DNA from: Liolophura sinensis
Taxonomy: Eukaryota > Mollusca > Polyplacophora > Chitonida > Chitonidae
DNA: 64,000 nucleotides
NCBI RefSeq assembly: GCF_032854445.1
Contig: NC_088302.1
Span: forward strand, 18,409,338-18,473,337
Direction: 5' to 3'
Shown: positions 1,310 to 57,435 of the stretch, in pieces
How positions within the stretch are numbered: the stretch's first letter is position 1
Layout of the letters: the number at the start of each line of letters is the position of its first letter
Program-made: the position numbers and the translations under genes
Notes under the pieces: model-generated
Seen by the model: only the letters and a program-made list of their open reading frames with translations
What the model was told of the DNA's origin: nothing
Databases searched by the model: none

Positions 1310-4300
1310 ATGTCGGCTGCACAGGGTCCGAATTACGCTATGGAAAGCTGGGACGACGTGAAGAACAAAGTGGTGAAAATCAAATCGGACCTAGAAGCGA
1401 CGAAAGATGAGAAATTCGAGTTACAAGACGAACTAAAGACGGTACGGGGACAGGCGGAGCAGGTGAGACGCCATTTTTGTGTTCAAACTGTATATCTATA
1501 TATTCAGATCATAAGCTCATTAGTTGATCTACTTAGGCGTAGCGCGATATCATCAGCAGTGCAGAGGCAAACGTATACATATATGCACCAGGAACGATGG
1601 CAAAGTATATCAACAGGTAGAATGATGCCACTTTACTAGCTCAGTATTCCACGTATGGTGGAGAACCCGTTTTCCACTGAACTACATCGGCCTTCGTTTC
1701 CTTTAACAATTCGCGAACAAGATTCGGAAACTGTTTCGGATATGACCTATCTATAGTAATTACACAGGTAGTATAATTCTTCTTGTTCGACAGTGAGACT
1801 GATAAAGCTTTAACTTTGACAACACGTACCAGATGGTAGCAGTCCGTGATTATTTACCTCATATAAATGACATCGATTGATGAAGTGACTGACCCCGGGG
1901 ATCACGAAGCTATCTTAGACTTCGAAACAAAGGCAAAACTTCATTCATTAAATATGGTATGTTCCTCTGCGTTATTTTAGCTGAAATTTGTTACACAATA
2001 ACTTACCCAGAATTTACGTTTTCAAAGTAAACTTTTGAGCTTGTAATATATGAAACAACAATTTTAAAGTGATTTGAAGTTTTGACTTGAGTATAAGGTC
2101 GCTTTATGATACCGGGGCCAGGTGTTCAATGGAGTCCTCGAGAACATTTCACTTATACGACGACGGTGAGCCCAACAAACAGTGGAATAAAGGGCACGTA
2201 CAAATTCCTTGCGGAGGTCAGGTTTGAACCCGCACCTTGTGTGTCCGGGCTATTGAAAGACAACCACATTCAAACTATACAGGGCACGGCCTGCCTTCAA
2301 CCGATTGAAAGGAAACAACAGGATTCCTGATGTATGGATATGCGTGCATACATCCAGAAACAAACGAAATTAACATCTAGGTTTATATAATTTGCATATA
2401 GAGTAGAGTGTGCATATTTTCATTATCTCGATTATTATTAAATGTTCTTCATATAATTTGTCATGAGCTGATGACAAGCATGACATAACACTGTATGTCT
2501 TCATATTCTGTTCTCAGAGTACGCGTACGTATGTATACCTCGTTCTTCATTGGGAATGAATCAATTTATTGAGAGACAAAAATAGACAGATGTGCTAAAA
2601 CAAGAGAAAGATTTATGTTTAGTTAGTTGGTTAGTTAGTTAGTTAGTTAGTTAGTTAATTAGTTAGTTTGTTTATTTAGTTAGTTAGTTGTTTATTTATT
2701 TATTTAGTTCTTTGGTTATTTAGTAAGTAAGTTGGTCATTTAGTTTGTTATTTTCACTAGCAAGACGACGGACATTTTTTATAAATTTATGCAGATCCAA
2801 TTAGTCAGGCAAAATAGGAAACAGGAGAACATTAGGCTTCACCTGGATATTTCTTTCCCATGCGGCTAATGAATATGCTAAACCAAGGCCCTTCAGCTAA
2901 TAATAATACATATTCATTTCGTACAGCCACACATTCGAGAATTTTATAACTATATTTAACTACAAAATGTTCCTAAATTGGGAGCTAAACGTGGCTGAGT
3001 GGTAACGTTCGTGTCATCAACAATTAGCCACCCCTATAGGGAGCGTTCAATCCCTGCCATGGACATGGAATTAAGGGGATTCCCCCTCACTCCTCAAAGA
3101 AAGTGACTTACACCGGTTTTCTCCACATCCTAAAGTTAAAGGACATTGAGCCAGTGAACACTTCCTCCATATAGTATTAAAAAATAATAAATAAATAAAT
3201 AAATGAATAAATATGCCTGCTTAGTATTGTCATCTTCATCAAAATGTAAGCACACACACCTAATGAATGCTCTTCGTATGAAGTAAAACCCCAAGCATAC
3301 ATACTTACATACTACATCATACTACATCACCTTATTTGATGTTATATTACAGGTAACAGTGAAGCATGAGTACGGCATTAGACAAATCGACAGACTCGAG
3401 TACCAAGTCAACCAACTCCAAGGTATATATTCATGGATAAGCTAATATCAAAACAGATGGACTTCGTGGCCAAAGAAGTTCAGTTGATTCTGACTTCATA
3501 CCCGGTCTTACGTCAGAAGGTCTCTCAGCAACTTCCGGATGGTCATGGGTTTCCCTCTTCCCCTGCCCTGTTTTCACTCACCATAAATATTCTTGGGTAG
3601 GGTGTAAAACACTAATCAAATAAATAAATAAATATCAATTAAACTAAAATTAAGTTGTCCCAAACCTGAAAAGTTATGGATCGAATACAGAAATTGATTG
3701 TTTTATTTATTGTTCGATTTTTAATCAGCACTGTATAGAATTATTTGCTTTAGACTGTGGGCGATGAACCTGTGATACGTTTACATTCATAACACTCACT
3801 ATAGAGGTGTTTCATTCATGGTCCAGAAGCAAACGTTAAAAACCTGTGTAAAATATCAACTGATTGGGGTAAAAAAACACACTTGTCGTTAACAGATTTA
3901 AACAGATCTCTTGGGATGAAAAAAAAAACCTGGATGCGTAAAACAGCAACCGGTTCTACTTATGATTAAGTCTTTATGAAACTTTTGAATATAATAGTTT
4001 ACATATTTTCTCTTGTCTTACAGGTGAAGTCCATGATCTTCGAAATGACAAAAACCGAATGTCCAGTGAACTTGACTGTCGCAAAGAGGAGAACGAGAAG
4101 TTAACCGCCCAATTAGAGCTGGCGAAAGATGCAATGGCTGAGCTTCAGGAAGCCAACGACGATAGGCGGCGACAACAACAACAGATCAGCACCATGACAA
4201 CGGAACAGGAAGTGCTGCAGACGAGTTTAGATCGATCTAATGAGGAGAGGGGCCGTCTTGAGGACAGTTTGGAAGAACTCCAGACAAAATGTAATGCATT

Positions 4301-4472
4301 ACAGCAGGAGTTAGACAAATCGAAGGACGATATTGCTAGACTGCAAAGAGAGTTGGAGATTGCAGAGACGGAGAGAGGCAAGCTATGGGAGAGACTCGAG
4401 AAAGAACAAAATCTTCAAGCCAAAATGGTGGATGACATGATGGCCACAGCGGAGGAGCTCTGTAACTTGTAA
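1310..4472 (+). CDS. Gene A: tropomyosin-derived coiled-coil protein, 223 aa, three exons
   Basis: Exons are 1310-1462 (51 codons, phase-0 donor CAG|gtgaga), 3353-3422 (70 nt, ends phase 1) and 4024-4472 (449 nt, stop TAA), all with GT-AG borders and T-rich acceptors. The first exon begins MSAAQGPNYAMESW; its last 38 residues (WDDVKNKVVKIKSDLEATKD onward) have the length and heptad pattern of tropomyosin exon 1. The 70-nt exon matches tropomyosin exon 8 in length and phase. The last exon is a continuous Glu/Lys/Gln/Leu-rich coiled coil containing ERGKLWERLEKEQ and ending MMATAEELCNL. There is no signal peptide or membrane segment, so the protein should be a cytoplasmic rod, probably a dimer. 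Exon 3 has exactly the length of exon 3 in gene C. It is not a recognised named gene. The exon structure is well supported; the function (perhaps actin or filament binding, by descent) is inferred. Confidence 0.82.
2120..2290 (-). repeat. Diverged SINE-related repeat
   Basis: Carries GAACATTTCACTTATACGAC, then an AACAAATTCC-like stretch and GGTTTGAACCCGCACC. The same order recurs at 25775-25925, so both belong to one family with a tRNA-like B-box end on the minus strand. Confidence 0.45.
2622..2760. repeat. TTAG/TTAT simple repeat
   Basis: Imperfect tetranucleotide repeat (TTAG)n passing into (TTTA)n and back within intron 1 of gene A. Confidence 0.8.
2988..3205 (+). repeat. tRNA-headed SINE-like repeat with (AATA)n tail
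   Basis: GTGGCTGAGTGGTAACG resembles an A box and GAGCGTTCAATCCCTGCC a B box. The body continues to an AATAAATAAATAAATG tail. The anticodon arm region is not tRNA-like. Confidence 0.5.
3515..3634 (+). repeat. SINE, 3' part
   Basis: A plus-oriented copy of the common SINE body: GGATGGTCATGGGTTTCC, ATATTCTTGGGTAGGG, GTAAAACACTAATCAAAT and an (AATA)n tail, in intron 2 of gene A. Confidence 0.75.
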
Positions 4473-7018
4473 AACATTCAATGGTCATATTTCGGAACGG
4501 ACTTACAACATGTTCAAAAAATGTATCCATTCTTTATGTGCAAGCATAGGCGTTTATAATTATCTTAATCACTAGGACGTGACGAAGAAAGAATGTAAAT
4601 TAAATGTGGAAAATTTGGGCTTGATAGGCGATATCTGTCTGCTGTATATTGAGTCTGAGCATCAAAGATAAATGAATTTAATGATATATACTTTACTCTG
4701 TTAAAAATGGAAAAGTCAGAATAATGAACGGAAAACAGTTGTGAAAAAATGATATATGTACAAGCCTGTAAGGTTTGATATCAAAGACGTTTTGTTTTAT
4801 TCAAGCGTCTTCAAGTGTGCGATAGCGTAAATGGCGAATATATTGTGTTTACGTGCATGAGTTCATTTATTAAAAAGCATTTGTTGTAATTTGTAAGAAA
4901 AAGGGTTATGAACAGAGTACATACTTCGCTGTATATCATTTGTGTTTAAAAAGGCATAATGTGTTATGCACACTTTGTTAATGACTTCCAGCAAATAGCA
5001 CATGCCTAGCCACCTGTATAGGTTTAGAACACAACTCGCGATAACCGAGCAGAACTATATGATTTCTGGAACAAATCGGATTTACTCATCACGCAAGTTT
5101 TTCTAGCTGAGGTTTTACTTTAGCTAATATAAACCGCAATAATTTACCTAGCAATACGATATAAGTCTATCACCACTGCTCGTATAAGTAGCACGTATAT
5201 ACATGTAGATACAAACACACCGATGCTTATGCATCCTCATACCATGCATAGGTAAAACGGAGTTATGGATAAGACTATCAAATACAAGAACGTGCGGGAT
5301 CCTGAACGGTATGTCCTTATCTAACAAGATTTATTTATTTATTTATTTGGTGTTTTACGCCGTACTCAAGAATATTTCACTTATACGACGGCGGCCAGCA
5401 CTATGGTGGGTGGAAAGCGGGCAGAGCCCGTGGGAAACCCACGACCATCCGGAGAGGAATCCAGCATGAGCTGAATTTGAACTCACAGCGATCGCATTGG
5501 TGAGAGACTCCTGGGTCATTACGCTACGCTAGCGCGCTAACCAACTGAGCCACGGAGGCCCCGTTATCTAACAAGAGTGTTGTCTTCATGATATATTGGT
5601 TGTCTTCATTATATATATCTCGCCTTGTAGCATTTGTTAGATCCTGCGTGTTCTGTGACAATTTCAATCAACGTCATATGTTATTACTGCAAAAACTAGT
5701 GACAAGGTTATTCCATCAAACGCGACGCATAGATTAATATCCATGAAACATGGAATAAAGACGCGTTTGGTAATCCTCAGCAAACGACTTTTTGAATTAA
5801 AGATTTTCCAAATTTCTTCTCCATGCCACGTTTGAATGTGTAGTTAATTTAAAATCAGTCAGGGTCTAGGCATCGTAACAGACATTCGTATGCCATTCGT
5901 AAACTAGTAAGGACATTTCAGCGCCTTCTAAAGCTGAACTTTTATCAAGGTACAACAAAATTTAGGCGGAGTTTTTAGAAGTATTTCATTTATTAAACAA
6001 TAGCCTAATCACAGGTTCACCTCAAAACTGGCCCAGTTGATGTTAATGTAATGATCCCGCATGCATGAACGAAAAGATTTCGTAGCCATGTGTATGCGAT
6101 CGCTTCTCGATCAGTTATCCAATCAATAAATAAATCAACGATTCTGATAAAAACCATCAAAAAACTCAACCACGGCCTACATTGTCGCAGACAAAAACAG
6201 TTTATCTTACTACTGTGTATGTTAAAAAAATTTTATGTAAAGGAATTTAAATGTGCAAACAGTATGACTAATTGCAGCTTGCATTCTTAATTTCCGGACG
6301 GGGGGTTTCATTCCATTCACGCGCTTCCGTAAAAACCATAGCAACGTGCGAAACTGATACCCAACCAAAATGTACTTTGCTCTTTACCCGCCACATGAAC
6401 ACCTTTTGAGATAAACCTACGCCACGTGTCTAACAATACGTCTGCCTGACTCAACCTGTGTACATAGCCTTACTTCCAACTGGTTCTCATCAGGCCATAC
6501 AGTCTACCAAACCAAACAACTACAGTCTAGTTTCGGAAACTTAAGAATATACGTAAAACGTTATACGTTTTTCTCGCACGCGACTCACAGCGGTTTGGCC
6601 TACATTCTTTCCCTTTCCCCTATTACATACTGCATACAAACATGCATTATTTTCTAGGGTAGGATCACAAAAGTTTGCAGACAAGGGTGGAAACTCTTTC
6701 TCTCAACCCTGTAGCCCACAGTGCAGCTGTAATCCTCGTTAGGGCTCATCTGTTGTTGTTTATTTATATTGCACACTTTGCCATCGGTGACTTTGGACTC
6801 GCGTGTTCAGGATTGCCGACCCCGTGGTTCGCTCGCGCCACCGATCAAGTACCTGTTGCTGGAGTAGACTGAACTGGTATCGGTGGGCTTTTACTGGGAT
6901 TATCAGGGATTATCTCCCAACAATGCGTTAGGATAATGGCCACAAGAATTCCACATTTGAGGTGATGACATGCTACAAAGCAGGATGACTATGCCATTCG
7001 TCTGCACAGAAGCTGCTC
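4473..7018. other. Gene A 3' UTR and intergenic region
   Basis: AT-rich sequence follows the gene A stop. An ATTAAA lies near 4599 but no canonical AATAAA occurs close by. A full-length SINE with target-site duplication sits at 5330-5563. The rest, up to the gene B start, shows no recognised gene. Confidence 0.5.
5330..5563 (-). mobile_element. Full-length tRNA-derived SINE with perfect 13-bp target duplication
   Basis: The minus-oriented element runs from the (TTTA)n tail through the core (GTACTCAAGAATATTTCACT) to the tRNA-like head ending CAACTGAGCCACGGAGGCCC. It is flanked by TTATCTAACAAGA at 5317-5329 and 5564-5576, which marks a fairly recent target-primed insertion. The conserved body resembles SINEs with a shared central domain known from molluscs (from memory, not checked). 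Confidence 0.92.
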
Positions 7019-11932
<4,914 letters not shown>

Positions 11933-14351: not shown

Positions 14352-17300
14352 ATGGCTGGACGCAAAGGCGCATACAGTATTCTAAAGGGAATGAACATGA
14401 GTGTGCCGGGAGCGATGCATGCGGCCGATACGGCATCAGGCCAGCAGACTAGTACAGGCGTGCCCCAAAGTACACCGATCAAGGTTACGTCATCAATACG
14501 GTTACAGCCTGCCAAATCCACATCAGGAATTCAGCTACAACAAGTATCAGCTCCCCAAGGAGAAGGACAGTTCCAGAATTTGGGATCCAGTATAAGGGCA
14601 CAGGTGCCGGATCAAACTTCCGCAAATATGTCCTCGCAAAAAGTTACTAAAATTTCTGTACAGCATCAGAAGTCTGGGCAAAGCAGGGTGCAACAGTCGA
14701 CACCACAGTTTCAGCAGTCTACACCACAGTTTCAGCAGTCGACACCACAGTATCAACAATATACACCACAATTTCAGTCGTCTCCGCAACAGTTTCAACA
14801 GTCCACGCCTCAGTATCAACAACCTGCATCCCAGTTTCAACAGCCAACTCAGCTTACACAATCCTCCAAGGGCACTCCTGTACAGATCCAACGACAATCA
14901 GCCATTCATCAAAGGACTAGTCAGATGCAGTCAAATGTGGTGCCTAATCAGTACCAGCCAGTCCATCAACAACAACAGCCACAAACGACAACAGTCAGGC
15001 TCCAACAAAGCAATCAACAATCAACTGGTTATCCAAACCAACTTTTGGGCCAACAGGAACTAGGCTGGGGACATGTAGAATTCGAGCCGGTAAAACAACA
15101 ACCAAGACAAAGGCGAACACGACAACAGCAGGCGCAGCCTCAACAGCAAGCTTCAAATTTTCAACGCGACTCCGGTGAAACTGATTTCAGTTTCCCTCCC
15201 GTATCGAGCCTTTCAAAGCAGTTTCAGGAAGGTAAACCAACACCAATACATTACGATAACGAAGCAGCAAGTGATCAAGACTACATCGGGTCACAACAAC
15301 AACAACAGTTTCAGCCAAGCCCTTCATTTGGATCCCAGTATTCACAACCAACAGCGGTAGATGGTCCGAAACCTTCTAGACAGCAACCTAAACAGAAATG
15401 GCAACCAAAGCAGCAATCATCAGAGCCAACATTTGGAACCCAGTACACAGCTGCTAGTCCTAAAGTACAAAGATGGCAACCACCGCAGGCAACACAGCAA
15501 CCAACTTCTGAACCACAGAGTCAGCAGTATCAACCTTGGCAACAGCAGCAACAACAACAACCACAAAAACAGCCGTGGCAACAGCAACAACAGCAGCCTC
15601 CAGCAGCTCAGTCTTTTGGAACTCAGTTTACACCGGCTAGCCCAAAACCACAACGATGGCAACCAAAGCAAACAACGCAACAATCAACATCTGACACACC
15701 AAGTCAACAGTATAAGCCTTGGCAACAACAACAACAACAACAGCCCCAGCAGCAACCATGGCAACAACAGCAACCTTGGCAACAACAACAACAGCAGCAA
15801 CAACCTAAGAGTTCTTTTGGGACATCTTTTCAGCAAGAGCCGAAGCCGACGCCTTCATTTGGAAGTCAGTTTGGTCAACAAACCACCACTGGAAGTCCTA
15901 AACCTAAAAAACAACCATCCCAGCCTCAACCGGCGGTGCCATCATTTGGAACAGCATATGGCCAAGCGGCTGTGGTCAGCAGTCCTAAACCAAAACGTCA
16001 AGCGTCTCAACCACAGCCTGCTGTGCCATCGTTTGGAACTCAGTACGGCCAACCTTCTGTAGGTAGTCCTGCTGCCAGACGAACACCATCACAACCTCAG
16101 GCCGCAGTCCCATCATTTGGTACACAATACGGTAGTCCAAAGACGTCCCGGCCTACTTCATACGGAAGTCAGTATGATCAAGAAGGCGACCAAAGCCAAG
16201 TCCAACCAGCACAACAACAACAAACGCCATCATTTGGAACTGCGTACAGCGCTAGTCAGCAACCTGCCGCACCATCATTCGGAACACAGTTCACAGCCAA
16301 GGGAAAACCACCTGCAACATCAGAGAGCCCCAGATCCGTCCCCAGCCATCCAGCCGCACACGGAATTTATTACATGGACGCTGGGAAAACATCAGGTCAG
16401 TACGGCCAAGCAACAGGAGCGAAGAACGTGCAACAACAACAGCAACAACAACAAAAGACTAGTCAATTCCAGGGAGGCCAGTCATCTCAAGGCCAGTATA
16501 AACAGAACGTTACAGCACATAGTGACAAAGGACCAGCTGGAACTCGCCAAAGCCAGCAAACCAGCAGTGTTAGTTCCTCATTCGGAGTTCAGTTTGTACC
16601 AAAAGACGAGAGCAAAGCAAAATCGGAACTGGAGATGAAACGGAAACAGATTGTTCAGCAGCAAGATGTGGGTACCCAGTTGACCTTCGAGGACATCAAA
16701 AACCGCGTGGCCAAATTACGCACAGATTTGTTCAACTCACGAGACGAAAACCAAGAACTACAAGACGAGATGAGAAACCTTAACAACATCATGAGCGAGG
16801 TAAGAAATCCATGTATTCTGAGTGTTTCGTCATCATTTTAATACCTTACAGTTTCATAGATTTTACGTCGTTGTATTCCAGTAGTGTTTTAATACGGCAC
16901 GTTCCTATTTCACATTGCTACATTAACATGTTTCTATGTCATCATATTGTTACGTTAGCATGCTCTTGTGTCATTCTGTTGGTACGTCCGAATGTGTCTA
17001 TGTCATTATAATGGTATGTCAACATGCTTCTGTCTCATCCTTTTGGTGTTAGCATGTTTCTGTGTCATCATATTCGTACGTCAGCATGTTTTCGTGTCAT
17101 TATATTGCTACGTCAGCATGTTTCATTGTCATCATATTGCTTCATCAGCATGTTTCTGGGTCTTCCTGTTGACACGTCAGCATGTTTCTGTGTCATTCTA
17201 TTGATACGTCAATATGTTTCTATGTCATCCTATCTGTACGTCATTTTGTTTCTATGTCATCATATTGGTACGTCAGTATGTTTCTATGTCATCGTATTGC

Positions 17301-19292
17301 TACGTCAGCATGTTTCTATGTCATCATATTGTTTCGTCATGTTGTTTCTATACCATCATATTGGTACGTCAGCATGTTTCTATGTCATCATATTCATACG
17401 TCAGCATGTTTCTATGTCATCATATTGGTTCGTCATGTTGTTTCTATACCATCATATTGGTACGTCAGCATGTTTCTATGTCATCATATTCATACGTCAG
17501 CATGTTTCTATGTCCTGATATTAATACATCGACCTGTGTCAACAGTGTTTATGACATGGCGGTTCACACGCCAACATATTTCACACTTATGAAATAATGG
17601 TTCCTGCGTCAACATGGTAGTTAGCGTGTCAGCGCGGCGCAATGATCCAGGAGACTCTTGTAAATGCGACCGCTGTGAGTTCAAGTCCAGCTGATGGTCT
17701 TGCAACAACCTACGGATGATCGTGGTTTCCCTTGGCCTGTGTTCTTCTTCCATCATAATACTAACCTCCGCGGTATAAGTGAAATATTCTTGAGTGCAGC
17801 TCAAGAATCAAATAAATAAATACATTGATAAAGTATATAAATTTTCAAGGTTTTTTTTTTCAGATTTTTGGGCCATTTACCCTTCGAGAAGTTGTTCATT
17901 ACATAACCTGAATAATCACAAGAACTATTTCATTAGTGCGCTAGTACTGGTTTATCTTTGTGCCTTATCCTCCTAAGTAAAATAATTTTTAACCTTACAT
18001 AGCAATCGCTATAAAACCTGCGACCTCAGATTTTCTGAGAGAGTGTTGACCGAAAGTTTTACAGTATTTTACATGGAGCATTCCCGAATAAGACTAACCC
18101 ATTGCAAGAGTGACATATAAGGGGATCTGTTCCTCAGTCCAGAAATAATGTTTCATTTGTAAAAAACCTTCCAAGATTTCAGTAATAACAATGAAGTTCT
18201 CTAGCCTAGAGCTCTCTTTGGTCGAGTGAAAAACAAAGGGCTCCTAATAAAAGTCCAGGGCATGTTTGTATATCCATAGCTGGTATGTTGTAGGCGGATG
18301 TACTTATTTTCTGTTTCAGATGAAGGTTCAGTACGAGTCCAGTGAGAGACAGAAACAAGCTCTGGCACATCAAAGCGAAGAGTTAAGCGGTAAGCGAAGA
18401 TAACACTTTGATCCATTTCCTGGTCTGATTGAGAATATAAGCATCTTAAAACACATTATTAATACCATGTGTGAAGGCCAAAATAACATTGTGTTATTTT
18501 AGCTAGCTTACATTTTTGAGACTAATTTTAGAAGAAATTACCTACACCTGAAAACTTAAAAATAAATGTTTAACGCCTTGTTAAAGAATTGTTCACCTCT
18601 TTCTGAGGGTGACCAGGCTTATGAGTAGATGAAACCGGAGTAAACCGTGCACAGCTCTTGGCAAGGTACCTAAAAACCTCATGATTTGAGGCCACAACCT
18701 AGGAAGCGAGACCTGGATTCGAACACGCTGCCCCTTTGGTGATAGCCTTGATAATGGCAGGGAGCCAGCATGTTAACCATGTGAGCAGCGAGGGTCTGAT
18801 CTCTAGTAAATCACAAGTGAAATATATATATCTTTCTTGACAGATATGATTCACGACCTCAAGTCAGAGGAAACTCGCCTGAGACTCGAGCTGGAGAGGA
18901 GCGAAGCGGAGAACGAACGGCTGATGAGAGACCTGGAACGCGCGAAGGACACCGCTGAAGAACTACAGGACACCACCGCAGCCAACATCCGGATGTCCAT
19001 GCAGATGCGCGACGTACAAGGAGAGCAGAAGCGCATGCGCAGAGAGCTGGATCGCGTCTGCGCAGATAAAGCGGAACTGGAAGACTGCCTACAAGACGCC
19101 AACTCTTCGTACAACAAGCTGAAAATGGACCTGGATATGATGAACGACAGCATCATCGGCCTGCAGAGGTCGCTGGTGGCCGCGGAGTCTGAGAGAAGTC
19201 TGCTATGGGATCGACTGGCGCAAGCACAGAAGGACAAAGAACAGATGATGGAGGAACTAATTCTCACGGCGGAAGAATTCGAGGGTATTTAA
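14352..19292 (+). CDS. Gene C: Gln-rich head fused to tropomyosin-derived coiled coil, 988 aa, three exons
   Basis: Exons are 14352-16799 (816 codons, donor GAG|gtaaga), 18320-18389 (70 nt, phase 0 to 1) and 18844-19292 (449 nt, stop TAA). The first ATG of the long frame is at 14352 (MAGRKGAYSILKGM). Residues ~1-778 are a low-complexity head rich in Gln, Pro, Ser and Thr. It has tandem QQSTPQF units near residues 115-165, several poly-Gln runs of 5-10 with intervening PW (encoded by mixed CAA/CAG), and about a dozen SFGTQY, SFGTAY or SFGSQF motifs between residues ~324 and ~745, often followed by SPKP(K/R)RQ. Residues 779-816 (FEDIKNRVAKLRTDLFNSRD onward) are the tropomyosin exon-1-like 38 residues. 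The rest is coiled coil with RSLLWDRLAQAQ and ILTAEEFEGI. No signal peptide, so intracellular. It looks like a prion-like head on a rod. Not a named family known to me. Confidence 0.83.
16920..17530. repeat. 32-bp minisatellite
   Basis: About 18 copies of a unit near CATGTTTCTATGTCATCATA followed by TTGGTACGTCAG. The 3' part has a higher-order 96-bp period (three units) repeated twice, including the variant TGTTGTTTCTATACC. Confidence 0.92.
17622..17825 (+). repeat. SINE copy with tRNA-like head
   Basis: Head pieces GCGCAATGATCCAGGAGACT and GTGAGTTCAAGTCCAGC, body, core GTATAAGTGAAATATTCTTG and an AATAAATAAATA tail. It has diverged by several changes. Confidence 0.85.
18550..18800 (-). repeat. 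Diverged SINE-like repeat in intron 2 of gene C
   Basis: Starts like a reversed SINE core (TTTAACGCCTTGTTAAAGAA, TTGTTCACCTC) and ends with a B-box-like GGATTCGAACACGCTGCC and a tRNA-like arm. This is a distinct subfamily from the full-length copies. Confidence 0.5.
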
Positions 19293-26400: not shown

Positions 26401-26749
26401 CTATACATTCTAGTTTTTACATTATATACATTGTCTTCTTGTTTCTATTCATGGACAGCTCCAAAATCAGCTGGAGATGTCAGAGATGGAGAAACAGCGA
26501 CTTGTTCAGGAAGTCAGTGACTTACGAGGTTAGTAGTCCATTTCCAGATGTGCTGGCAAGACTGAAGCTATACGGCATTGTCCTGACCATCTCGTAGAGC
26601 CAGAGCCTATACAAACACTATCGATGTGCGCAAGTCATTACGGCATGCTCTGGACGAGGACAAAGGTCAAAGTTGCGGCCCAAAGCATCCATCTTGCGAG
26701 CATTACTGGAATTCTACTTTGGCGTATACTTTGGCGTATATCGGTATAG

Positions 26750-26797
<48 letters not shown>

Positions 26798-27050
26798 TGG
26801 CCATAACAAGAATTAAGTCGGCTTTGTGAAATGAAACGTGCTTTGTGAAATGATGCTAAAGTCCTTTCGATACAAAAATCATGAAAGAAAGTCACAAAGA
26901 ATAGATTTAGGAAGGAAAATATTGTCCCAATCACGCCTGTAAATGTTCTTTGGTGTCTCTTTATTTCCAGATACCGTGGATCAAATGAATGAAGAGAAGA
27001 GGAAATTTGGTCAAAACTTCAAGGATGAATTGCGAGAATTGTTGTCGTAA
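23471..27050 (+). CDS. Gene D: 87-aa mini-tropomyosin (exon 1 + exon 8-like + exon 9-like)
   Basis: Exons are 23471-23584 (114 nt, 38 codons, donor GAG|gtgaga), 26459-26528 (70 nt, ends phase 1, CGAG|gttagt) and 26971-27050 (80 nt, TAA). The start MEAIMTALAKVRNDLEQARS shares MEAI and its length with the tropomyosin exon 1 at 55565. The middle exon (SEMEKQRLVQEVSDLR) resembles the tropomyosin exon 8 pattern around AERxVxKLxKEVDxLE. The last exon (DTVDQMNEEKRKF) resembles DELxxEKEKYK of exon 9. In animal tropomyosins exons 1, 8 and 9 have 114, 70 and about 80-83 coding nt (recalled family knowledge), so the gene looks like tropomyosin with exons 2-7 removed. The product would be a short cytoplasmic coiled coil keeping both end segments that normally overlap head-to-tail. 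An AATAAA lies at 27920. Exon borders are strong; expression and function are unknown. Confidence 0.75.
24584..24715 (+). repeat. Dispersed repeat family X, copy 2
   Basis: AGAGCAGCGACGATAGTGTA, ATTGGCAAGTGGTCATACGT, TCAGTTAGGGTTTTAT and CTGTTCATATAAATGC match the 34245 copy in the same order. Confidence 0.6.
25085..25215 (+). repeat. SINE, 5' part only
   Basis: Starts GGGGGCCTCCGTGGCTCAGT, keeps the B box (GATGAGTTCAAGTCCAGC) and ends after TACGTGGGAAGGTC; the body, core and tail are missing. Confidence 0.85.
25385..25740 (-). repeat. Second SINE-like family, copy 1
   Basis: Ordered blocks GGGTTTAACGTCGTGGTTAA, TTTTCAGTCATATGACGAC, TGTCTCCTTGTGG, CTGACACTCGGCCAACCAGT and GAGCGCCAAGC, ending in a strong B-box complement CGGGTTTGATCCCGGGTCTC. 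The same order recurs at 25940-26275. Confidence 0.7.
25775..25925 (-). repeat. Diverged SINE-related repeat (same family as 2120)
   Basis: TTTAACTCCCTACTCAATAA, AACAAATTCCCTGCTCAGAG and GGTTTTGAACCCGCACC, followed by a tRNA-like arm (ACCACTAGACCAC). Confidence 0.55.
25940..26275 (-). repeat. Second SINE-like family, copy 2
   Basis: Repeats the blocks of 25385-25740: GGGGTTTAACTTCGTACTCA, TTTTTCAGTCATATGACGAC, GTGCCTCCTTGTAAC, TACGGGTCAACCAGTC, AACGCCAAGCGAGG and GATCAAGGATTGATCC. Diverged from copy 1, so not a very recent duplication. Confidence 0.65.
26752..26794. repeat. (AT)n microsatellite
   Basis: About 21 uninterrupted AT units in intron 2 of gene D. Confidence 0.95.
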
Positions 27051-34203: not shown

Positions 34204-34244
34204 TGCGTGAGAATGCCTACAGTGTAATTAAAAACTACAACATA

Positions 34245-41755: not shown

Positions 41756-41869
41756 AGGATTAGTTCTACAGAAAATAAGCTTAATTCCTTATAACTGTCA
41801 TCCACGTGTTTATCTCATCCGATTATCCCATTATTCAGTTTTCTCCGTCGTCGACTGGACTAATTTCTC

Positions 41870-42005: not shown

Positions 42006-43059
42006 CCAATACATTATGGTTTAAATGTTTCTCCTTCACTTATTATGAATTAATCTGTTCTGCTCACTTATCCCGCAATCGCATGCAATAGTTTCAAATG
42101 TTTTACCCAGATAGGCCTACTTACAGTAATAGATATCTATAGGCTAGAACTACATGAACATAGGGCCTAGTTGAAAAACACTCCAAACTATACCCTATAC
42201 CCTATATCCTAAATGTTTTCCCGTTAGACACACACCTCGTGCAGGTACATTCGTCCGGTTTCGGTATCTCGAGGGTTCTAGTGGATCTGTCGTGCATGCA
42301 TGGTGAATCATTGTCAGCAAATGTTGTTTACACTCTGTTCACCAGAAGGGGCAAATTAAAGGCCTATTAAGGCAATTATTCGCATTTAATATTATGCAAA
42401 TTGACAACACATGAGACACTTATCGGCAGGTTTAACTATTTAAAATATTTTAATTGTCAAATTATGTTGCTGTGGTCACCACAGAGAAAAGGTGAGTGAG
42501 TGCATACACAAAGGTTTCTGTATAAGCAGATCGTTTGCCTGAAGCGCCTTAAGTAGTTCCGGCAACTGCCTGGCGTATCTGAGCGGTGAGCGTCTACTGA
42601 AAGGAGTGATCATTGCATTGGATGAATCATACAAAAATGGCATTATCTACACGCTGTGTGAAAAGAAAGGAAAAGAAGTTTTTTTTTCAAAATCAAGCCG
42701 TGTATGGCTATGGGATATACTTTTACTTCACCCCTCCACAGGCATGCAAGGTGTTTGAAGGGATATATGTAACTGCATTAGTGACCTGGGTATATACCAA
42801 GCCATGCAGCTTTTTCAATCCAGCCCTTGCGCGTGTTCACGCCTGGGTGGTTAGGCCATTGAACTATATGACCACAAGAAAAAGATATAGTACACATTTA
42901 ATACACTTACTTCTATCACTTGCAGACTGGTCTAAGCTGACATACATTTTTAAATAAAACTTATATAGACTACACTTCAGACCCTGAGAGCGAGCCTGCT
43001 CGTGTAGGCCCACTGATGAATGATTCGGATAGTAGTATTATCACACATTTGTTAATACA

Positions 43060-44640
43060 TATGATCATACCTTCAAACATATGTATTATCGTATTTTGTT
43101 GATAAATATAGGCATATCTCCAAACATCTGCATTATAATATTTTTTGTTAACTCATATGGTCATATCTTCGAACATCTGCATTATTATATTTGTGTAAAT
43201 AACTATGGGCATACCTTCAAACATCTGCATTATTATATTTTTGTTAATTCATATGGACATATCATCAAATATCTGCATTATTATATTTTTGTTAATATAT
43301 TTGGGCATACCTTCAAACATCTGCATTATTTTATTTCTGTTAATACATATGGGCATATCTTCGAACATCTGTATTATTACAGTTTTGTTAATATATTTGG
43401 GCATACCTTCAAACATCTGCATTATTTTATTTTTGTTAATACATATGGGCATATCTTCGAACATCTGCATTATTATAGTTTTGTTAATATATTTGGGCAA
43501 ACCTTCAAACATCTGCATTATTTTATTTTTGTTAATACATATGGGCATATCTTCGAACATCTGCATTATTATAGTTTTGTTAATATATTTGAGCATACCT
43601 TCAAACATTTACATTATTTTATTTTTGTTAATATCTTGGGCATATCTTCGAACATCTGCATTATTATAGTTTTGTTAATATATTTGGGCATACCTTCAAA
43701 CATCTGCATTATTTTATTTTTGTTAATACATATGGGCATATCTTCGAACATCTGCATTATTATAGTTTTGTTAATATATTTGAGCATACCTTCAAACATT
43801 TACATTATTTTATTTTTGTTAATATCTTGGGCATATCTTCGAACATCTGCATTATTATAGTTTTGTTAATATATTTGGGCATACCTTCAAACATCTGCAT
43901 TATTTTATTTTTGTTAATACATATGGGCATATCTTCGAACATCTGCATTATTATAGTTTTGTTAATATATTTGAGCATACCTTCAAACATTTACATTATT
44001 TTATTTTTGTTAATATCTTGGGCATATCTTCGAACATCTGCATTATTATAGTTTTGTTAATATATTTGGGCATACCTTCAAACATTTACATTGTTATAGT
44101 TTTGTTAACAGATACGGACATACTTTTAAACGTCCGAATTATCGTATTTCTGTTAATACAAATGGGCATTCCGTCAACCATCTGCAATGTTAATACAAAT
44201 GAGCATTCCGTCAACCATCTGCAATGTTAATGCAAATGGGCATTCCGTCAACCATCTACAATGTTAATACATATCGGCATACATTCAAACATCTGCAATG
44301 TTAATACATATCCGCATACCTTCGAACGTGCGCCTTATCATATTTTTAATACCTATGGGCATGTCGTCAAATATCTGCATTATTATATTCTTGTTAATAC
44401 ACATGAGCATACCTTTCATCGTGTGCCTTAGCATGTTTTAATACATAGGAGCATACCGTGAAACGTCTGTATTATCATATCTTTGCATACCTTCAAACAT
44501 TTGTATTGCCATATTTTTGTCAGTATATGTACATGAGCATACCATCAAATATCTCACATTTTTGTTCATATATATGGGAATACCTTCAAACATCTGCATT
44601 GTCAGATTTGTTAAATGCACATAGATATACATGTACCTTC
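43060..44640. repeat. 48-bp minisatellite with 191-bp higher-order unit
   Basis: The basic unit is 48 bp (about GGGCATATCTTCGAACATCT, GCATTATTATAGTTTTGTTA, ATACATAT). Alternating versions form 96-bp pairs. Between about 43610 and 44050 a 191-bp unit of four monomers, one with a 1-bp deletion, repeats almost identically. The array decays toward 44640. Because 48 is a multiple of 3, long frames stay open on both strands (259 codons plus, 119 codons minus); these are not genes. Confidence 0.95.
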
Positions 44641-44893
44641 AAACATTCAGCGAAGCATTCTGAGTTTAATCGTCCATTGAAAGCTGCAAAGTAGTCGAAT
44701 TAGTTGAATTCTATGAACAATGAATTAGTTACCAAAGCCTGCGCTTCCTTGTGAAAGACTTTCAAACTTTAAAGCTTAAATAAAAGATTACCTGTGCTGT
44801 ATGTACCCATCACTCATACACTGTGATCAGAATACTCCGACATTGCATCGCGTTTATCTCCCCTGGTGCGTCTTGATTTCAGATACACTGGAA

Positions 44894-45034
44894 CTGTTCA
44901 GTGCCTCCCTTTTCCTTTACGCCAAGGTCAAGAAAGAATATAGCCAACACAAAATTAGACAGCATAGCAAAGCTATTTATAACAAGACGGAATCATTCAT
45001 TGCAGTGATATATGCCGTTTATATACAGGTTTAA
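44894..45034 (+). other. Possible orphan terminal exon
   Basis: After a good acceptor (cttgatttcag) the sequence reads in phase 1 as DTLELFSASLFLYAKVKKEY, then a basic helix, to TAA at 45032-45034. The entry phase is the same as the third exons of genes A-D, and it begins DTL as gene D's begins DTV. Beyond that there is no convincing coiled-coil pattern, and no matching first or second exon is visible nearby. It could be chance. Confidence 0.2.
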
Positions 45035-46374: not shown

Positions 46375-46505
46375 TTCGACGCTTTCGTGAAGAATTTTTC
46401 ACTGATATATACGACGATGGTCTCTTTTGGAAACCGAAGTATCCGGCGTAAACCATCGACCTTTTGAAAGTTACTGACAAACTTTCCCACGTAAAGCAGA
46501 AAAAT
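46375..46505 (-). repeat. SINE-related repeat, variant body (second copy)
   Basis: GAAGAATTTTTCACTGATAT, GGAAACCGAAGTATCCGGCG, TAAACCATCGACCTTTTGAA and GACAAACTTTCCCACG match the 36250 copy in order. Confidence 0.5.
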
Positions 46506-47799: not shown

Positions 47800-47990
47800 T
47801 GGATAGTAAGACTAGCTTTATTCTAACAGTTCATACGAAAGTTTATAAAGTAGACAATTGCACACCCGGGACTAGCACCAAGGCTTAAGGCTAATTATAG
47901 GCAAAAAAAAAAAAAATACAGCGATGTTATTAGACGTCACTGGAATACACTCAAAATGCTGCGTCGTACTCACATTTAATAAACATTTTC
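47800..47990 (+). repeat. Dispersed repeat family X, copy 4
   Basis: TTTATTCTAACAGTTCATAC, CACCCGGGACTAGCACCAAG, an A-run, ACAGCGATGTTATTAGACGT and CACTCAAAATGC follow the order of the 34245 copy. Most diverged of the four. Confidence 0.45.
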
Positions 47991-49049
47991 ATATAATATT
48001 TTAAGGAGATGTCTTGTTGCATATAAAAACAGGAACATAACGTATATAGAATACGCCTTGTTTTATTATATGTAACATTTCGAAATATAATATCGATCTA
48101 ATATCGCATTTGGACAATATTAGTCATGGGCTATTGTCCATACGCAACGTACCTGTTCTTTGCCATTGCCTAAATCATTGGATTCTTGGATTCTCCATCC
48201 ATACACCTCACAGCCGACAAATAAGTGAATAACCAATCATCAAATATATCTATTGGTAACCAGAACGAGCACAGGAGCTAGAATCGAACTCCTGACCTCG
48301 TTTGTCAGATGATACACGTTATTCTATAGGAAACCCAGTTAGACAGCCATCCTTAGTTCCTGAAGATTGCACTGATGATTTGTGGCTACAGATGATGCTA
48401 ATGTACATGGGTGAGGTCAGGAGGTCACGTAATCTCGAGGAAGCACGCGCGTCTCGTGCCGGTTACCGTTACTTCCATCTGTTAGGGCCTCATCGTATTA
48501 CTCTTGCCTCACATGGTTGGGGTTTTGGTGCGGGCGTAAACTATACCATATGACAGCACCCGTGTCTGTTTTTAAGACTGTCGTGGCGCGTGGCGACAAC
48601 AGATCAGCAAATGACATCTTATATTGATTTGTTGCCTATATTTAGTCCGCTTTTTGCTGCTCCTTGGGAGGAGATATACTTTGGGCGGTATTGACATGTT
48701 ACCGACTCTTTCTTTGGTTGGGGGGGGGACATTTGAATTTTAGAATCGATTCTTTGTTCAGCTGTGTGTTGCCCTTTAGGTTCAATGGAATTTGTCTCCA
48801 TTAGCCTAGGCTTAGAGTCGCTAAACTAATAAAAATTGCTGTATATAGTACAGAATTCTGTGACAAATTAGCAACAAGTATTTAATCTCTTTATCTATTA
48901 ATATGAATATAAATTCACCTGTAATATATGCACGTGTGCATTGTTCGTTGTGCAGCTTGCGACTGTCTTATGTCTGTTGAAAATCTCTTATCCCAATATG
49001 AAATTATATCTGTAGGTCACACGTCGAAAAGTTCGTCAGTAACCTGCCA

Positions 49050-49152
49050 AAGATCGATGGTTTATTCCAGGTACTCTGGTTCCCTCCACATGTAAAGCTG
49101 TTTCGTCGTATTCTTGAGTATATGGTGTTACACATCTATCAAATAAATAACA
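49050..49152 (+). repeat. Decayed SINE 3' end
   Basis: GGTTCCCTCCACATGTAAAG, CGTCGTATTCTTGAGTATAT and a CAAATAAATAAC tail. Confidence 0.6.
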
Positions 49153-52100: not shown

Positions 52101-52637
52101 AATACCAGTTACCAGGCATTCCTCAAAATGGTCGTGGACAACTATGACGTTGATGTAGGACTATATACATGCTAATCCGGCGTTATTTTCAGTTCATGTA
52201 TGGTATATGCAAAAACACGCTGTGCCACTCACTTCATCCATAAGGTTTTAGCGCCAAGAATAACGTTGCCTTAGAGTGTAAATATACACCGACGTGCGGA
52301 TTAAAATAGTTCGGCCCACATGGCCCGAGTTATAATTACTGGGTTATAGTTTACACCCGACACTTTTGAGGCGAAGTAAACAGATTCATAGCCTACGTGT
52401 TTTAAAAGTAAGCATTTCAGCTGAAAACGGGGTGCGGTAAACGGAGAACATTTATGCTTCAGGCGAGAGATACAACGCACAGTGCATGGGGCAAGGTGAC
52501 ATTCACGTATATTTCCAGTGGTTCATTCACAGGTGGGATAAAAAAAACACACGCCTCTCTAATACTGGAGATGAAAAACTCGGTTAAAAAATTTGCACAA
52601 TGCATCATGCGAAATGTTCTTCCGAGACTTTCGGACT

Positions 52638-52785
52638 ACGATTTATTTATTTACTTGTTAGGTATTTTACGCAGTACTCAAGCGTATTTCACTTATATAC
52701 GTTGGCGGAGGACATCATGGCGGGAGGAAACCGGGAAGAGCGCGTAGGAAACCCGCATGATCCAGATAAACTCACGGTCACAGCT
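52638..52785 (-). repeat. SINE body
   Basis: TTTATTTATTTACTTGTTAG, GCAGTACTCAAGCGTATTTC and CATCATGGCGGGAGGAAACC match the minus-strand SINE; the head is missing. Confidence 0.8.
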
Positions 52786-53037
52786 TTGCTGACAGGGTCC
52801 TGAGTTTCTGATGTGCTGCATGTGCTAACATTTTCACCTCTCGGCCTCGGAGGCTCCAACTTAGATTGAAGCTCAGAGTAATATATATATAGTTTTCACA
52901 GATATAATCCATAACGAACGGCATAAAAAAATGATATCCGTATATTTACAACATGCAAAACAATGCACTTGTCGCCCCAAAATGAAATGATACATCAGAT
53001 GTCTTGTCATGTTAAATTTACTTGACATATTTTTAAA

Positions 53038-53215
53038 GTTCATGCTGGCTTCCTCTCCGGTCGTACGTGGGAAGGTCTGGCAGCAACATGCGGATGGTCG
53101 TGGGTTTCCCCTGGGCTCAGCCCGGTTTCCACCCACCATAACGCTGACCGCCGTCGAATAAGTGAAATATTCTTGAGTACGGCGTAAAACACCAATCAAA
53201 TAAATAAATAAATTT
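53038..53215 (+). mobile_element. Headless SINE
   Basis: Starts at CATGCTGGCTTCCTCTCCGG, essentially the same truncation point as the 38496 copy, and keeps body, core and (AATA)n tail. Confidence 0.88.
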
Positions 53216-53221
53216 ATTTTT

Positions 53222-53310
53222 GACTTATATACGATGGTGGTCAGTTTTACGGTTGGGGGAAGCCGAAGTGACAGGAGTAACCCACCTGCATTTGACAAGT
53301 GGTTAGCACG
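53222..53310 (-). repeat. SINE-related repeat, variant body (third, partial copy)
   Basis: TTATATACGATGGTGGTCAG, GGGGAAGCCGAAGTGACAGG and GTAACCCACCTGCATTTGAC resemble the 36250 and 46375 copies. Confidence 0.4.
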
Positions 53311-53492
53311 CCCGCTCGGTGCAATGACCCAGGAGACCAGATCTCACCAAATCGATCAATGTGAGTTCAACTCCAGCTCTCGCTGGCTTCCTCTCCCGCG
53401 GTAAGTCGGAAGGTCCGCCACCAACCTGCAGATGGCCTTGGGTTTCCCCGGGGCTAAAAACGCCAATCATATAAATAAATATATAAATTTGA
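53300..53492 (+). repeat. SINE with head, internally deleted
   Basis: GTGGTTAGCACGCCCGCTCG head, GAGTTCAACTCCAGC, CTGGCTTCCTCTCCCGCGG, then GGGTTTCCCCGGGGC joined directly to AAAAACGCCAATCATATAAA. The central core is deleted. Confidence 0.8.
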
Positions 53493-55199
53493 CAAATGGT
53501 CTTCACCGAATGCAAGATTGCGCAAAAGGCCAGTAAAGAGTTCGTCGATCGCTTACCGGTGAGAGCGCGAGAAAACAAATTCTTTGTCCATTCATAATTC
53601 ATAATTACCTATGCGTCCCATGAATGGGAACAGAGGAAACAGCGGTACAACGTATATAGTTCCTGTATACTTTGGACACAGAAATGGAAATCTCAAAAAT
53701 CTGCGAGAAAACCACTTAATAATATACAAGTAATTTGATTACAGTATTTCGGATATGAAAAACCTAAATTGATTTCCAGGCGCTCCATAACTTTTAAAAT
53801 GTTAATCTCGAAAACTCATCTCTGTTATTACTATGAATATTAATGCCGTAATGGATACCGGTGCTTATATCTTTTGCCCTGTATGTAGTGTTGTATTGTA
53901 TGCAGTACACAGTGTTTTGTTTCAATATCTTGGAACGGAAACCACAAGTTCCAGGATTTGTATAATGAAAGCAATTAAGAAGTGTTTTTTTTTTTCTTTT
54001 TTCTTCAAAAGACAAGCTTCAACGAAAATTGAAGAAGTGCATTGATTCCTCCGATGCACAGAATCATTCACCATGTCAGTTTCAGACTAACTCCCTATTA
54101 ACCAGTCATAATAACTGAAAGTACCAGTACTATTTTTGGTGGCTGCGAATGTCCATTTGCTTTAAATAATTTTCCCACATCGTTAGTGATTTTGATATAG
54201 ACTTATCAGCCTGGCAGTAAACTAGGGGCTGAATCAAATAATAGTTGCGAACGGTTTAAGACAACTTAAAGTTGATATACCTGTATATATACCTTGTCGT
54301 ACCTGTAAGGAAAAACTCAAACACCTTAGGCACACGATGCACAAAAAGTTACGTTTCACAAAATATTTTCCTGTTAGCAGCAAAGATTATTCAATTTAGT
54401 ATAAAGCGGCCAAGCGACAGAATGATCGGATCAATAACAATTTATCCCACATCTAGACAGATAAACTATTCAGGAAACACACTGTTTACTAGAAATGTTG
54501 AGTTTCATGACCGTTAGCACAGCAGGGGTGCTGTGTGCAAATGTAAAGATGACACTGCCACGACTTTGGGGGAAGAGGGTTACATCTGCTTTCGTTGACT
54601 AATAAACCCATTCACGACGCTATCTATGTTTACTTCTGATGTACTAGCATAACAGCTGGCAAAAGAATCATTTATCTAATGGCCATAGCTTTCATGCGTT
54701 TCCATGGAAACCGAAAGTGTACACGCGCGAGAGATAGAGAGGCGTAGAGAGAGGGGTTCCCTTCCGCGTGTTGGTTTACAATATTGCAGACCATTTGGGA
54801 GCAGTCCATACCAAGTTTGACCTATCCTCAGGGAGGTAAGGGTCCCCACCCCATTTTCACCTTACACTCACCCTTCTCACAACCACACATGCTCAACATG
54901 CCCTACTCTCCTCCCCCCCCCCCCCCCCCTATACAGCTCTTTCTACCGCAACAAACCAAGAGCTGTCTAATCCAGATTTCAGGTGCATTAAACCGTTTTA
55001 GTTTAATAAGATAACAGTTTGCCAAGGCAGTTTGAGAGTTTATAGCAGCTCCTTTAAATGAATGGCACTTTATGCCCGACCCCCCGTTCCTGCCTGGCAT
55101 GCATATAACTGTAGTAGACTTAGCAATGAGATGGTCCAAGGGTTTCCCCCTACTGCTTTTCAACTTTGCCAAAGAAGGTTGTAACTGAATCTGGGTTCG
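53493..55199. other. Intergenic DNA before tropomyosin
   Basis: AT-rich, with a 17-base poly-C at 54913-54929. No recognised gene; short frames here are not supported. Confidence 0.4.
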
Positions 55200-55564
55200 T
55201 CGTGACGTTCCCCAATTGCTACACTCTCCTCTCAGAGGGCGCGTGTTCTGATAGGTTAACCGTTAAAACACCCGTGTGACGGAGGCCTCAAAGCTAGAAA
55301 TCTGGACGAATAAGAGTTAACTTCATCGCAGCCTTTTCGAGTCATCGGGTAATAGTACAGACTCTTTCGTCTGTGGTGAAGCCAGTCGCCGTCTCCGGGC
55401 ACCACAAGCTCCCGTTACTCTCGTCTGCAGTCCTAGTACCCCGTCACAAGCCAAAGGCGTCCGCAAAGGCACATCGTCTCGCCAGCGAAGCATTCCTATT
55501 GCTTTTAATTCCCTTTACTCATTTTGTCGTTTTATTTCTTGGATAAATCCAGAAAACAGTCAAC
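55200..55564 (+). promoter_or_regulatory. Tropomyosin exon 1 leader region
   Basis: This GC-richer stretch precedes the tropomyosin ATG and probably contains the transcription start and a 5' leader exon. The T-rich run from 55501 and the AG at 55551-55552 look like an intron acceptor 12 nt before the ATG, and the start context (gtcaacATGG) is good. No clear TATA box was seen. Confidence 0.4.
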
Positions 55565-57435
55565 ATGGAAGCCATCAAGAAGAAGATGTTAGCCATGAAA
55601 ATGGAAAAGGAGAATGCCTTGGACAAGTCCGAGGAGTTACAGCAAAAACTAAGGGAAACCGAAGAGCAAAAGGCAAAGGTAAGAAATCAAACTTTTTTTA
55701 TGTATCTGTTTCTTCCAAATATTGACTAACTTGCCCTACAAAATTCACAGAGATATCAGTTTTCGCTTAAAAGTTTTGCAAAATGAAAACAGTGGCCTGT
55801 GGATATTTTATGTATAAAATTTTATACATAAAATAAAATGTTTTGGTACAGGGTGAAATGTATCCAGCAAATTATGACGTTTCCCTCGTCTTTTTACTGG
55901 TGTATCTTTCGAAATTTGCACTGAGAAAGTTTGGCACTTGCCAGTCGAACAGAAAATTTATTCTTAGCTATACAAACGTCAAAGAATTACTCTCCTCACG
56001 TACATCAAATATTGCACTCACAAACTGTAGCTTTCTTAGGCCGTTAAGAATGACAAGGGACGTATACAGTAAAGGAATCTGCTTATCTCAGCAAAATGGT
56101 GACATTCACATAACGAAAAGGTCTTCGCTGGCAGTTTTCTCCATTTAGCTGTTATTCCAACCTTCAAAACGCCGGCCGCCATGTTGGTAACCCAATCTGA
56201 TGTTGGCCTATACCTACATTCATCGGTATACTGGACTTGGATACACGGCTTTCCAGGCCCTGGTGGCTTCTATCTATACTTCACGTGCACTTCAGGTCTG
56301 CGGGCTGATGTTAACTGTCAAAACAAATTTAAAACCAGTTTCCCTTTTTTCATCTCTTTTTCCATCTACCTCTTTCTAGAACGGCGTCTTTCTAGAATTA
56401 CCGCGTGTAAAAAATGCTATAAATACAGAACACGAACAAATTCTGCTAAATTTATGAATATTTAAAATTTATTTACATCGATGAATTAATGTAGTGCGAA
56501 CAAAAATTTAAAAATACAAGAAAACTATCATTTTCTGTGAAATTGCAAGCAATTGGTGGTTATGTCTAATGTTAATCTTTTGATGAGTGATCAAATTCAC
56601 GGCAGACAGTCCAACAGAGTCGGTGCTCTGCTTGTCATCAGTTTCGGCTTGACAGTTCGTCCTCGCTTGCCATGTGTCACGCACGTGGTTCTGTTGACAT
56701 CTCAATGCGCATGCTCAACGGTTCCAAAATGACAACTTTACAACAACCTTGTAAAGAGCACGTGTTTTAAATCTGTCCTGTAAAGAAAAAAACACATACA
56801 GCTTGTTAAAACTGGCGAACAAGTGACAGGCACATTAACCACCGGTTGTGATGAGGGCCAAGTTTGTTGAGTGTTGACATAACTAACGACCACAACAATG
56901 ATCGTAAAGTTAACACGCTCTACCAACCACAAAAATAAAACGCCACAATCAACGCGGATGATTAAATGCACTTTGATTTATTTCCCAGTAGAGCCTTTAT
57001 TAAATTAACCCAATGAACATAAACATAAGAAAAGGAATGGGATTATAATGACATTCAATCAAAACGATCAAAACGATCCATTACAGCATATTTACTGTGC
57101 CATAAAACAGGTAATATTTTATATAAGCGATTGTCTGACGGCCTTAAATGTTGGGTAAATTTGGAAATCGCATTACTGAAGAAATTAACATGTACATTTC
57201 CGTATAATATATTTTACACTTATGAGAGAAGCTCTATACGCCATTTGGAACAAAATGTTACATCTTATGTTTTTTTTCTCCTGTCATTTACCTCCTTTTT
57301 TTCTCCCAGGTTGAAGAAGATCTCAGCAATCTGCAAAAGAAATACGCCAACCTTGAAAATGATTTCGACAATGCTAACGAACAACTTCTTGAGGCACAAA
57401 CAAAACTGGAAACCCAGGACAAGAGGGTCACCGAG
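55565..57435 (+). CDS. TPM: Tropomyosin, exons 1 and 2 of the high-molecular-weight isoform (partial gene)
   Basis: Exon 1 is 55565-55678 (114 nt, 38 codons) and exon 2 is 57310-57435 (126 nt, 42 codons). Both are phase 0, with AAG|gtaaga, tctcccag|GTT and GAG|gtaagt borders. The protein begins [20 protein letters not shown] and continues with [20 protein letters not shown] and [20 protein letters not shown], ending KRVTE. This is the classic start of protostome tropomyosin, and exon sizes equal those of the animal family (residues 1-38 and 39-80). Tropomyosin is a dimeric coiled coil that lies along actin filaments and polymerises head to tail; in muscle it works with troponin, and in catch muscle it is a thin-filament component. 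The remaining exons 3-9 lie beyond the right edge. A T-rich tract with AG at 55551-55552 suggests that exon 1 begins at 55553 after an intron in the 5' leader. Confidence 0.95.
55679..57309 (+). other. Tropomyosin intron 1
   Basis: No alternative exon 1 or 2 was recognised. The 101-codon frame at 55843-56148 has no coiled-coil character. Confidence 0.6.

Follow-up and report, generated by a model that had tools for sequence, protein, structure and literature searches.

The window considered here, a 64,000-nucleotide stretch of the genome of the chiton Liolophura sinensis (C8:18409338-18473337, analysed with 60 kb added at either side), holds part of a tandem array of at least six small genes, named Z, Y, A, B, C and D, which lie on one strand beside a tropomyosin gene and probably descend from it. 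The array extends over about 44 kb from the first exon of Z to the end of D, with Z and Y being two further genes found upstream of the window on the same strand as A-D; negative coordinates denote positions upstream of the window start. Genome-wide searches covered an assembly of 609,464,459 bases in 632 contigs, and a chiton assembly of 632 scaffolds and 609.5 Mb is described in PMC11068029; the published name Liolophura japonica has been corrected to L. sinensis (PMC12441733).

Gene models of the array

The models consist of exons with AG/GT borders and open frames, and six is a minimum count of members, since the search scored the best candidates only. The exons are as follows:

-16833..-16720, forward strand: gene Z exon 1, 114 nt, start MEGIKKKM
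-16022..-15909, forward strand: gene Z extra exon, 114 nt, which may be alternative or constitutive
-14897..-14828, forward strand: gene Z 70-nt exon
-12326..-12115, forward strand: gene Z last exon, 70 codons
-9310..-9182, forward strand: gene Y exon 1, with a 5-aa N-terminal addition before the 38-codon block
-5778..-5709, forward strand: gene Y 70-nt exon
-4057..-3252, forward strand: gene Y last exon, 268 codons
1310..1462, forward strand: gene A exon 1, 51 codons, of which the final 38 (from 1349) form a tropomyosin exon-1-like coil
3353..3422, forward strand: gene A 70-nt exon, phase 0 to 1, exon-8-like
4024..4472, forward strand: gene A last exon, 449 nt, 149 codons, or 27 (the exon-9 length) plus 122
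10586..10655, forward strand: gene B 70-nt exon, phase 0 to 1
11328..11932, forward strand: gene B last exon, 605 nt, 201 codons
14352..16799, forward strand: gene C exon 1, a 778-aa glutamine-rich region and then the 38-codon coil at 16686-16799
18320..18389, forward strand: gene C 70-nt exon, phase 0 to 1
18844..19292, forward strand: gene C last exon, 449 nt, 149 codons
23471..23584, forward strand: gene D exon 1, exactly 38 codons, with a MEAI start like the local tropomyosin
26459..26528, forward strand: gene D 70-nt exon, phase 0 to 1
26971..27050, forward strand: gene D last exon, 80 nt with the stop, 26 codons (tropomyosin exon 9 has 83 nt)

Z, Y, A, C and D each possess a complete set of exons from start to stop, followed by a poly(A)-signal hexamer (616 nt after the stop in Z, 362 in Y, 126 in A, 92 in C and 9, also 869, in D). 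The 38-codon phase-0 first exon is exact in Z and D and follows N-terminal additions in Y, A and C, where the extent of the block was defined by alignment, and a 70-nt penultimate exon of phase 0 to 1 is present in all six genes. Gene D, with 114+70+80 nt and 87 aa, has nearly exactly the size of tropomyosin exons 1, 8 and 9 combined. A first-pass annotation of the window had described this arrangement of a first exon ending in a 38-codon phase-0 coil, a 70-nt exon and a last exon in A, C and D, and it recurs in the present models, with B having the latter two exons. The stretch 7163-7213 was rejected as a first exon of B, its score of 34 being equalled by the top match on the reverse strand and surpassed in two of three shuffles. 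Open AG-70nt-GT stretches were enumerated across the introns of four genes (Y, A, C and D) and sorted by a rough coil-and-splice score; the array exon came out on top in all but A, where it was second. By a criterion picked post hoc, one of 90 background candidates of this length in 85.2 kb passes, as against 6/6 array exons and 2/2 copies of tropomyosin exon 8. The region of C that precedes its coil (14352-16685) encodes 778 residues that are for the most part rich in glutamine, with recurrent SFGTQ/SFGSQ motifs as well as WQQQQ runs, and gave no Pfam match at E 0.01. Intron 1 of the same gene contains a 32-bp minisatellite of 18.7 copies (16927-17522).

The last exons of A and C, compared without gaps, share 53/149 residues, and their identity at the three codon positions is 0.53, 0.64 and 0.30, where composition would lead one to expect 0.29, 0.30 and 0.27. 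Since first and second positions are conserved while third positions are near chance, this pattern indicates old coding exons under constraint, in which third positions appear saturated and the protein held. The 38-codon blocks of Y, A and C show the same codon-position skew. The open frame of the Y last exon has a probability of ~3e-6 by composition (that of Z, at ~0.01, is not telling), and a hydrophobic period of 3.47-3.51 was found in all six array proteins and reached by 0/500 shuffles of each, with C represented by its coil part, B taken without a first exon and the shuffles scanned on a coarser grid. A reading of the array as decaying fragments of tropomyosin pseudogenes could draw on B, in which a first exon is not recognisable, and on the fact that the full rod is kept by none of the members. 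Given the five complete open models with AG/GT borders, the conservation of the first two codon positions in the A and C last exons and the long open frames, such decay is extremely improbable.

The members differ chiefly in their last exons, which comprise 26 codons in D, 70 in Z, 149 in A and C (27+122), 201 in B and 268 in Y, with 27 in tropomyosin. Against the last exon of Y, those of A and C are identical at 41/149 and 42/149 positions at offset 0 and at 28/146 and 34/146 at offset 122, which suggests that Y may carry a second copy of a 122-residue unit. When Y is compared with itself, however, an offset of 14 scores nearly as high as one of 122 (74 and 78). Counted from the 38-codon block, the coils of A and C are each 210 residues long and that of Y 329, all whole numbers of heptads. 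By definition, tropomyosin has some 40 heptads in an unbroken series, with actin-binding periods that repeat along it, and the coil parts of the array proteins, of 87-334 aa and without exons 2-7, do not conform to this organisation.

The adjacent tropomyosin gene

The local tropomyosin gene, which was located with a human TPM1 query, is complete, with 284 aa encoded by exons of 114, 126, 134, 118, 71, 76, 63, 70 and 83 nt. Three of its exons lie within the window:

55565..55678, forward strand: tropomyosin exon 1, 114 nt
57310..57435, forward strand: tropomyosin exon 2, 126 nt
63735..63902, forward strand: probable alternative tropomyosin first exon of the 1b type, with a phase-0 donor fitting exon 3

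When joined to exon 3, the 1b-type exon matches PF00261 at 66.8 bits. The 38-codon tropomyosin exon 1 that had been placed at 55.6 kb on the strand of the array is present there with 114 nt, and the exon 1, 8 and 9 sizes and phases that had been given for animal tropomyosins hold for the local gene (114, 70 and 83 nt). The 70-nt phase 0-1 penultimate exon, on which the proposed descent depended, exists in two alternative copies. Exons 4, 6 and 9 of the gene are each present in three copies, and exons 5 and 8 in two (71.3-88.1 kb in window coordinates). The three versions of exon 9 all have 27 codons, and the alternative sets are more numerous than those commonly known from vertebrates. The N-terminus of tropomyosin carries a conserved M(D/E)AIKKKM motif, present in the local protein as MEAIKKKM. 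The corresponding start is MEGIKKKM in Z and MEAIMTAL in D, and the motif is not kept in Y, A and C, which have extensions. Between tropomyosin exons 2 and 1b, an open frame at 60187-60753 encodes a lysine/glutamine-rich low-complexity protein (MSDTLIPGEQ...) with no Pfam match at E 0.01, which may represent an extra first exon or a separate gene.

In a tropomyosin locus so rich in alternative exons, the array might be understood as alternative 5' and 3' exons of one large gene, and its first exons, which end in phase 0, would in principle be compatible with splicing to tropomyosin exon 2 or 3, both of which start in phase 0. However, Z, Y, A, C and D each run from start to stop with a poly(A)-signal hexamer, and the end of D lies 28.5 kb before tropomyosin exon 1, making this arrangement very unlikely.

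Tropomyosin and other coiled-coil families compared with the array

Each array exon was slid without gaps along the local tropomyosin, using all chains of exons 4, 5, 6 and 8 and two of the three exons 9, with split codons approximated. The controls were 2251 coiled-coil-like windows from eight of 12 loci of the same genome (the other four gave none); 1716 of them come from two loci, and they overlap and hence are not independent. The exon-1 place ranked first of 247 for Z, the extra exon of Z, Y, C and D, and second for A. Its summed score was 293 as against 216 for the next place, and was reached by 0/2251 control windows, the best of which scored 209. Individually, the exon-1 score was equalled or exceeded by no control window for Z and its extra exon, by two for Y, one each for A and C and three for D; with the first residue omitted these counts became 0, 0, 2, 0, 1 and 6 for Z, Z-extra, Y, A, C and D, respectively.

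In a search of the whole genome with the Pfam tropomyosin profile, exon 1 of Z ranked fifth of 39 matches (29.7 bits, E 1.6e-4) and was the best outside the tropomyosin gene, being preceded only by four exons of the latter, from which it lies 72 kb away on the same strand. Tropomyosin is the best Pfam family for the spliced Z protein of 131 aa (34.7 bits, E 1.6e-8) and the sole one at E<0.001 for its 169-aa form (37.9 bits). The origin from tropomyosin with loss of exons 2-7 that had been put forward in the first-pass annotation is thus supported by the exon-1 register, the absence of control windows reaching its sum and the profile match of Z.

Several results weigh against this origin. The exon-8 place was top for no 70-nt exon of the array (ranks 4, 2, 2, 50, 2 and 4 of 262 for Z, Y, A, B, C and D) and in the sum was tied for first with another place. 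The exon-9 place ranked 3, 9, 3, 3, 7 and 5 of 258-259 in the same order, and came second in the sum to a place 14 residues upstream. The C-terminal end of tropomyosin was matched well only by A, B and C (ranks 8, 4 and 2 of 259), and poorly by Y, Z and D (42, 77 and 216). In the comparison with exons 8 and 9 that had been proposed earlier, the exon 8b sum, reached by 2/2814 control windows, speaks for the tropomyosin origin; the exon 8a sum was reached by 40/2814, and the 70-nt exon of B alone showed no exon 8 match, with 368/2814 controls scoring as high. For B, moreover, no first exon was found. In the profile searches, Z falls below the curated PF00261 cut-off of 38.6 bits and no array gene passes it, and at a loose threshold the profile also matches 10 of 14 control prokaryotes, none above the cut-off. 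Its scores on C and Y (9.1 and 7.4 bits) give no useful signal, Tropomyosin is absent among the 25 Pfam families listed for each of A, B and D, and A, B, C, D and Y all score better with generic coiled-coil models. The 70-nt and last exons of Z without a 38-codon exon did not find tropomyosin at E<0.001. Searches of the PDB ranked other coiled coils first, and protein searches of the genome with Z, Y and A (E up to 1) and with D exon 1 (E up to 10) recovered no tropomyosin exon. Those with Y, A and Z found relatives at the present cluster alone and no additional members elsewhere; the remaining matches were weak (best E 0.013) and are read as probable generic coiled coils. When Z is scanned from its extra exon on, the profile places the 70-nt exon at 193-215 and the 27 codons that follow at 216-242, precisely the extent of exons 8 and 9. 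This register was not counted as strong evidence: the alignment scores 20.1 bits against 19.4 for the best shuffle match of any family, and in the two further forms of Z that were scanned the alignment begins at profile position 1.

These scores raise the alternative of an unrelated coiled-coil family, for instance a GAS8-like one, that came to lie beside tropomyosin by chance with coincidental exon sizes. The best Pfam models for A, B, C, D and Y are indeed other coiled coils, the best rival by E-value being GAS (PF13851), which C matches at 30.4 bits, above all nine heptad-preserving shuffles (best GAS score 18.3, best of any model 19.4 bits); A and C are the sixth and seventh of 28 matches of the GAS profile in the genome. 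However, C remains below the GAS8/DRC4 cut-off of 32.3 bits and the other array genes reach 16.2-22.7, while tropomyosin's own natural cross-matches attain 27 bits. The true GAS gene of this genome lies on another contig, C5, and scores 92, 60, 48 and 28 bits, with the array exons at 21.7, 20.7 or less among other coiled coils, and a GAS8 origin is not favoured. As to whether A-D stand nearer to some other family, generic models outscore tropomyosin, but the families shown for these genes and for Y all stay below their cut-offs, the nearest being Mto2_bdg with A (22.2 against 22.3 bits). An unrelated family would further need the size, start and phase of exon 1, the 70-nt exon, the last exon of D, the strand and the linkage all to coincide, and would have to accommodate the exon-1 register sum (0/2251 controls) and the tropomyosin match of Z; we consider it quite unlikely.

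Among other features of the region, a long open frame beyond tropomyosin (L007:4355-6952, reverse strand) encodes a C2H2 zinc-finger protein (Pfam C2H2), which we take to resemble basonuclin. The human TPM1/BNC1 and TPM2/BNC2 pairs also lie on common chromosomes, and the linkage of tropomyosin with a basonuclin-like gene may be old. Several long open frames in a 48/96/191-bp tandem repeat at 43048-44186 are probably an effect of the repeat period and not a gene, and C8 also contains eight molluscan haemocyanin domain matches in succession, as fits a mollusc.

Proposed origin, products and known systems

Taken together, these observations make it probable that the array consists of tandem copies descended from the adjacent tropomyosin gene through a founder that kept exons 1, 8 and 9; for A, B, C, D and Y this descent would be argued from exon structure, register, linkage and mutual homology. 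The founder would have lost exons 2-7, and since introns 1 and 7 of tropomyosin are both in phase 0, a single deletion from intron 1 to intron 7 would have joined exon 1 to exon 8 in frame. The predicted founder of 38+23+27 = 88 codons compares with the 87 aa of D. Tandem copying to at least six genes would have followed, and then, if this order of events is right, divergence by the addition of coiled-coil heptads within the last exon, by the duplication of exon 1 in Z and by the acquisition of new N-termini (13 aa in A, 5 aa in Y and 778 mostly glutamine-rich aa in C).

The array products very likely dimerise as coiled-coil rods, and are most likely intracellular, with lengths of about 13-50 nm at the coiled-coil rise of 0.15 nm per residue. 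Tropomyosin is an actin-binding protein that assembles into head-to-tail polymers. For the array products, binding to actin or tropomyosin is plausible only for Z and perhaps D, because the N-terminus is free there; Z, which starts with MEGIKKKM, may have retained the capacity to dock on actin or tropomyosin ends, as perhaps may D. For the long members a role as scaffold rods is more likely, and in C such a rod would bear a disordered glutamine-rich head. A bolder and, on balance, unlikely possibility is that a separate family arose from the two polymerising ends of tropomyosin, in which the small Z and D proteins would serve as caps or connectors of tropomyosin cables on actin, and the longer Y, A, B and C would have regrown rods into a new filament or scaffold system, one of them with an SFG/glutamine-rich head able to condense. 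Tropomyosin is usually seen as a rod under tight full-length constraint, with novelty arising through exon choice. If the proposed descent is correct, the array would represent a natural experiment on which parts of tropomyosin evolve freely, the middle having been dropped, the ends fused in frame and the coil regrown; it would also illustrate how exon phase permits a gene family to be founded by one deletion, and chitons, or molluscs more widely, would gain a set of uncharacterised rod proteins.

No described family of such genes was recognised in literature searches, a weak test at the level of listings. Tropomyosin exon duplications in human, fly and worm are treated in PMC9741552, and in the accessible part of PMC5888912 the label 'tropomyosin-like' occurs once, in a figure legend. 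The spiralian ciliary-band genes lophotrochin and trochin were considered and set aside: the main text of PMC7441323, as far as available, lacks 'tropomyosin' and 'coiled' and describes lophotrochin as part DUF4476 and part new motif. The main text of a chiton radula paper (PMC6351634) does not contain 'tropomyosin', 'coiled', 'glutamine' or 'Q-rich'.

The closest known system is that of the animal tropomyosin genes (TPM1-4, Tm1/Tm2, lev-11; PF00261), with which the array shares the 38-codon phase-0 first exon, the 70-nt phase 0-1 penultimate exon, the heptad coil, the MExIKKKM start (in Z), the adjoining position on the same strand and, in D, a last exon near the length of 27 codons. It differs from them in the absence of exons 2-7, in the enlarged last exon of Z, Y, A, B and C, in the new N-terminal extensions of A, Y and C and in the lack of a tropomyosin-profile signal in A, B, C, D and Y. 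Short non-muscle tropomyosin isoforms start at exon 1b, keep exons 3-9 and are transcripts of one gene. They are likewise shorter rods from a tropomyosin locus, and a probable 1b-type exon is present here (63735-63902), but the array genes have their own starts and stops and would keep only exons 1, 8 and 9. With short tropomyosins of about 160 aa (PDB 8puz, 9ff9), Z aligns from residue 1 at a non-significant E of 0.2. These proteins are presumably fungal and the ordinary tropomyosins of their cells, whereas the chiton has a full-length tropomyosin as well, of which the small array proteins are read as probable exon-loss products.

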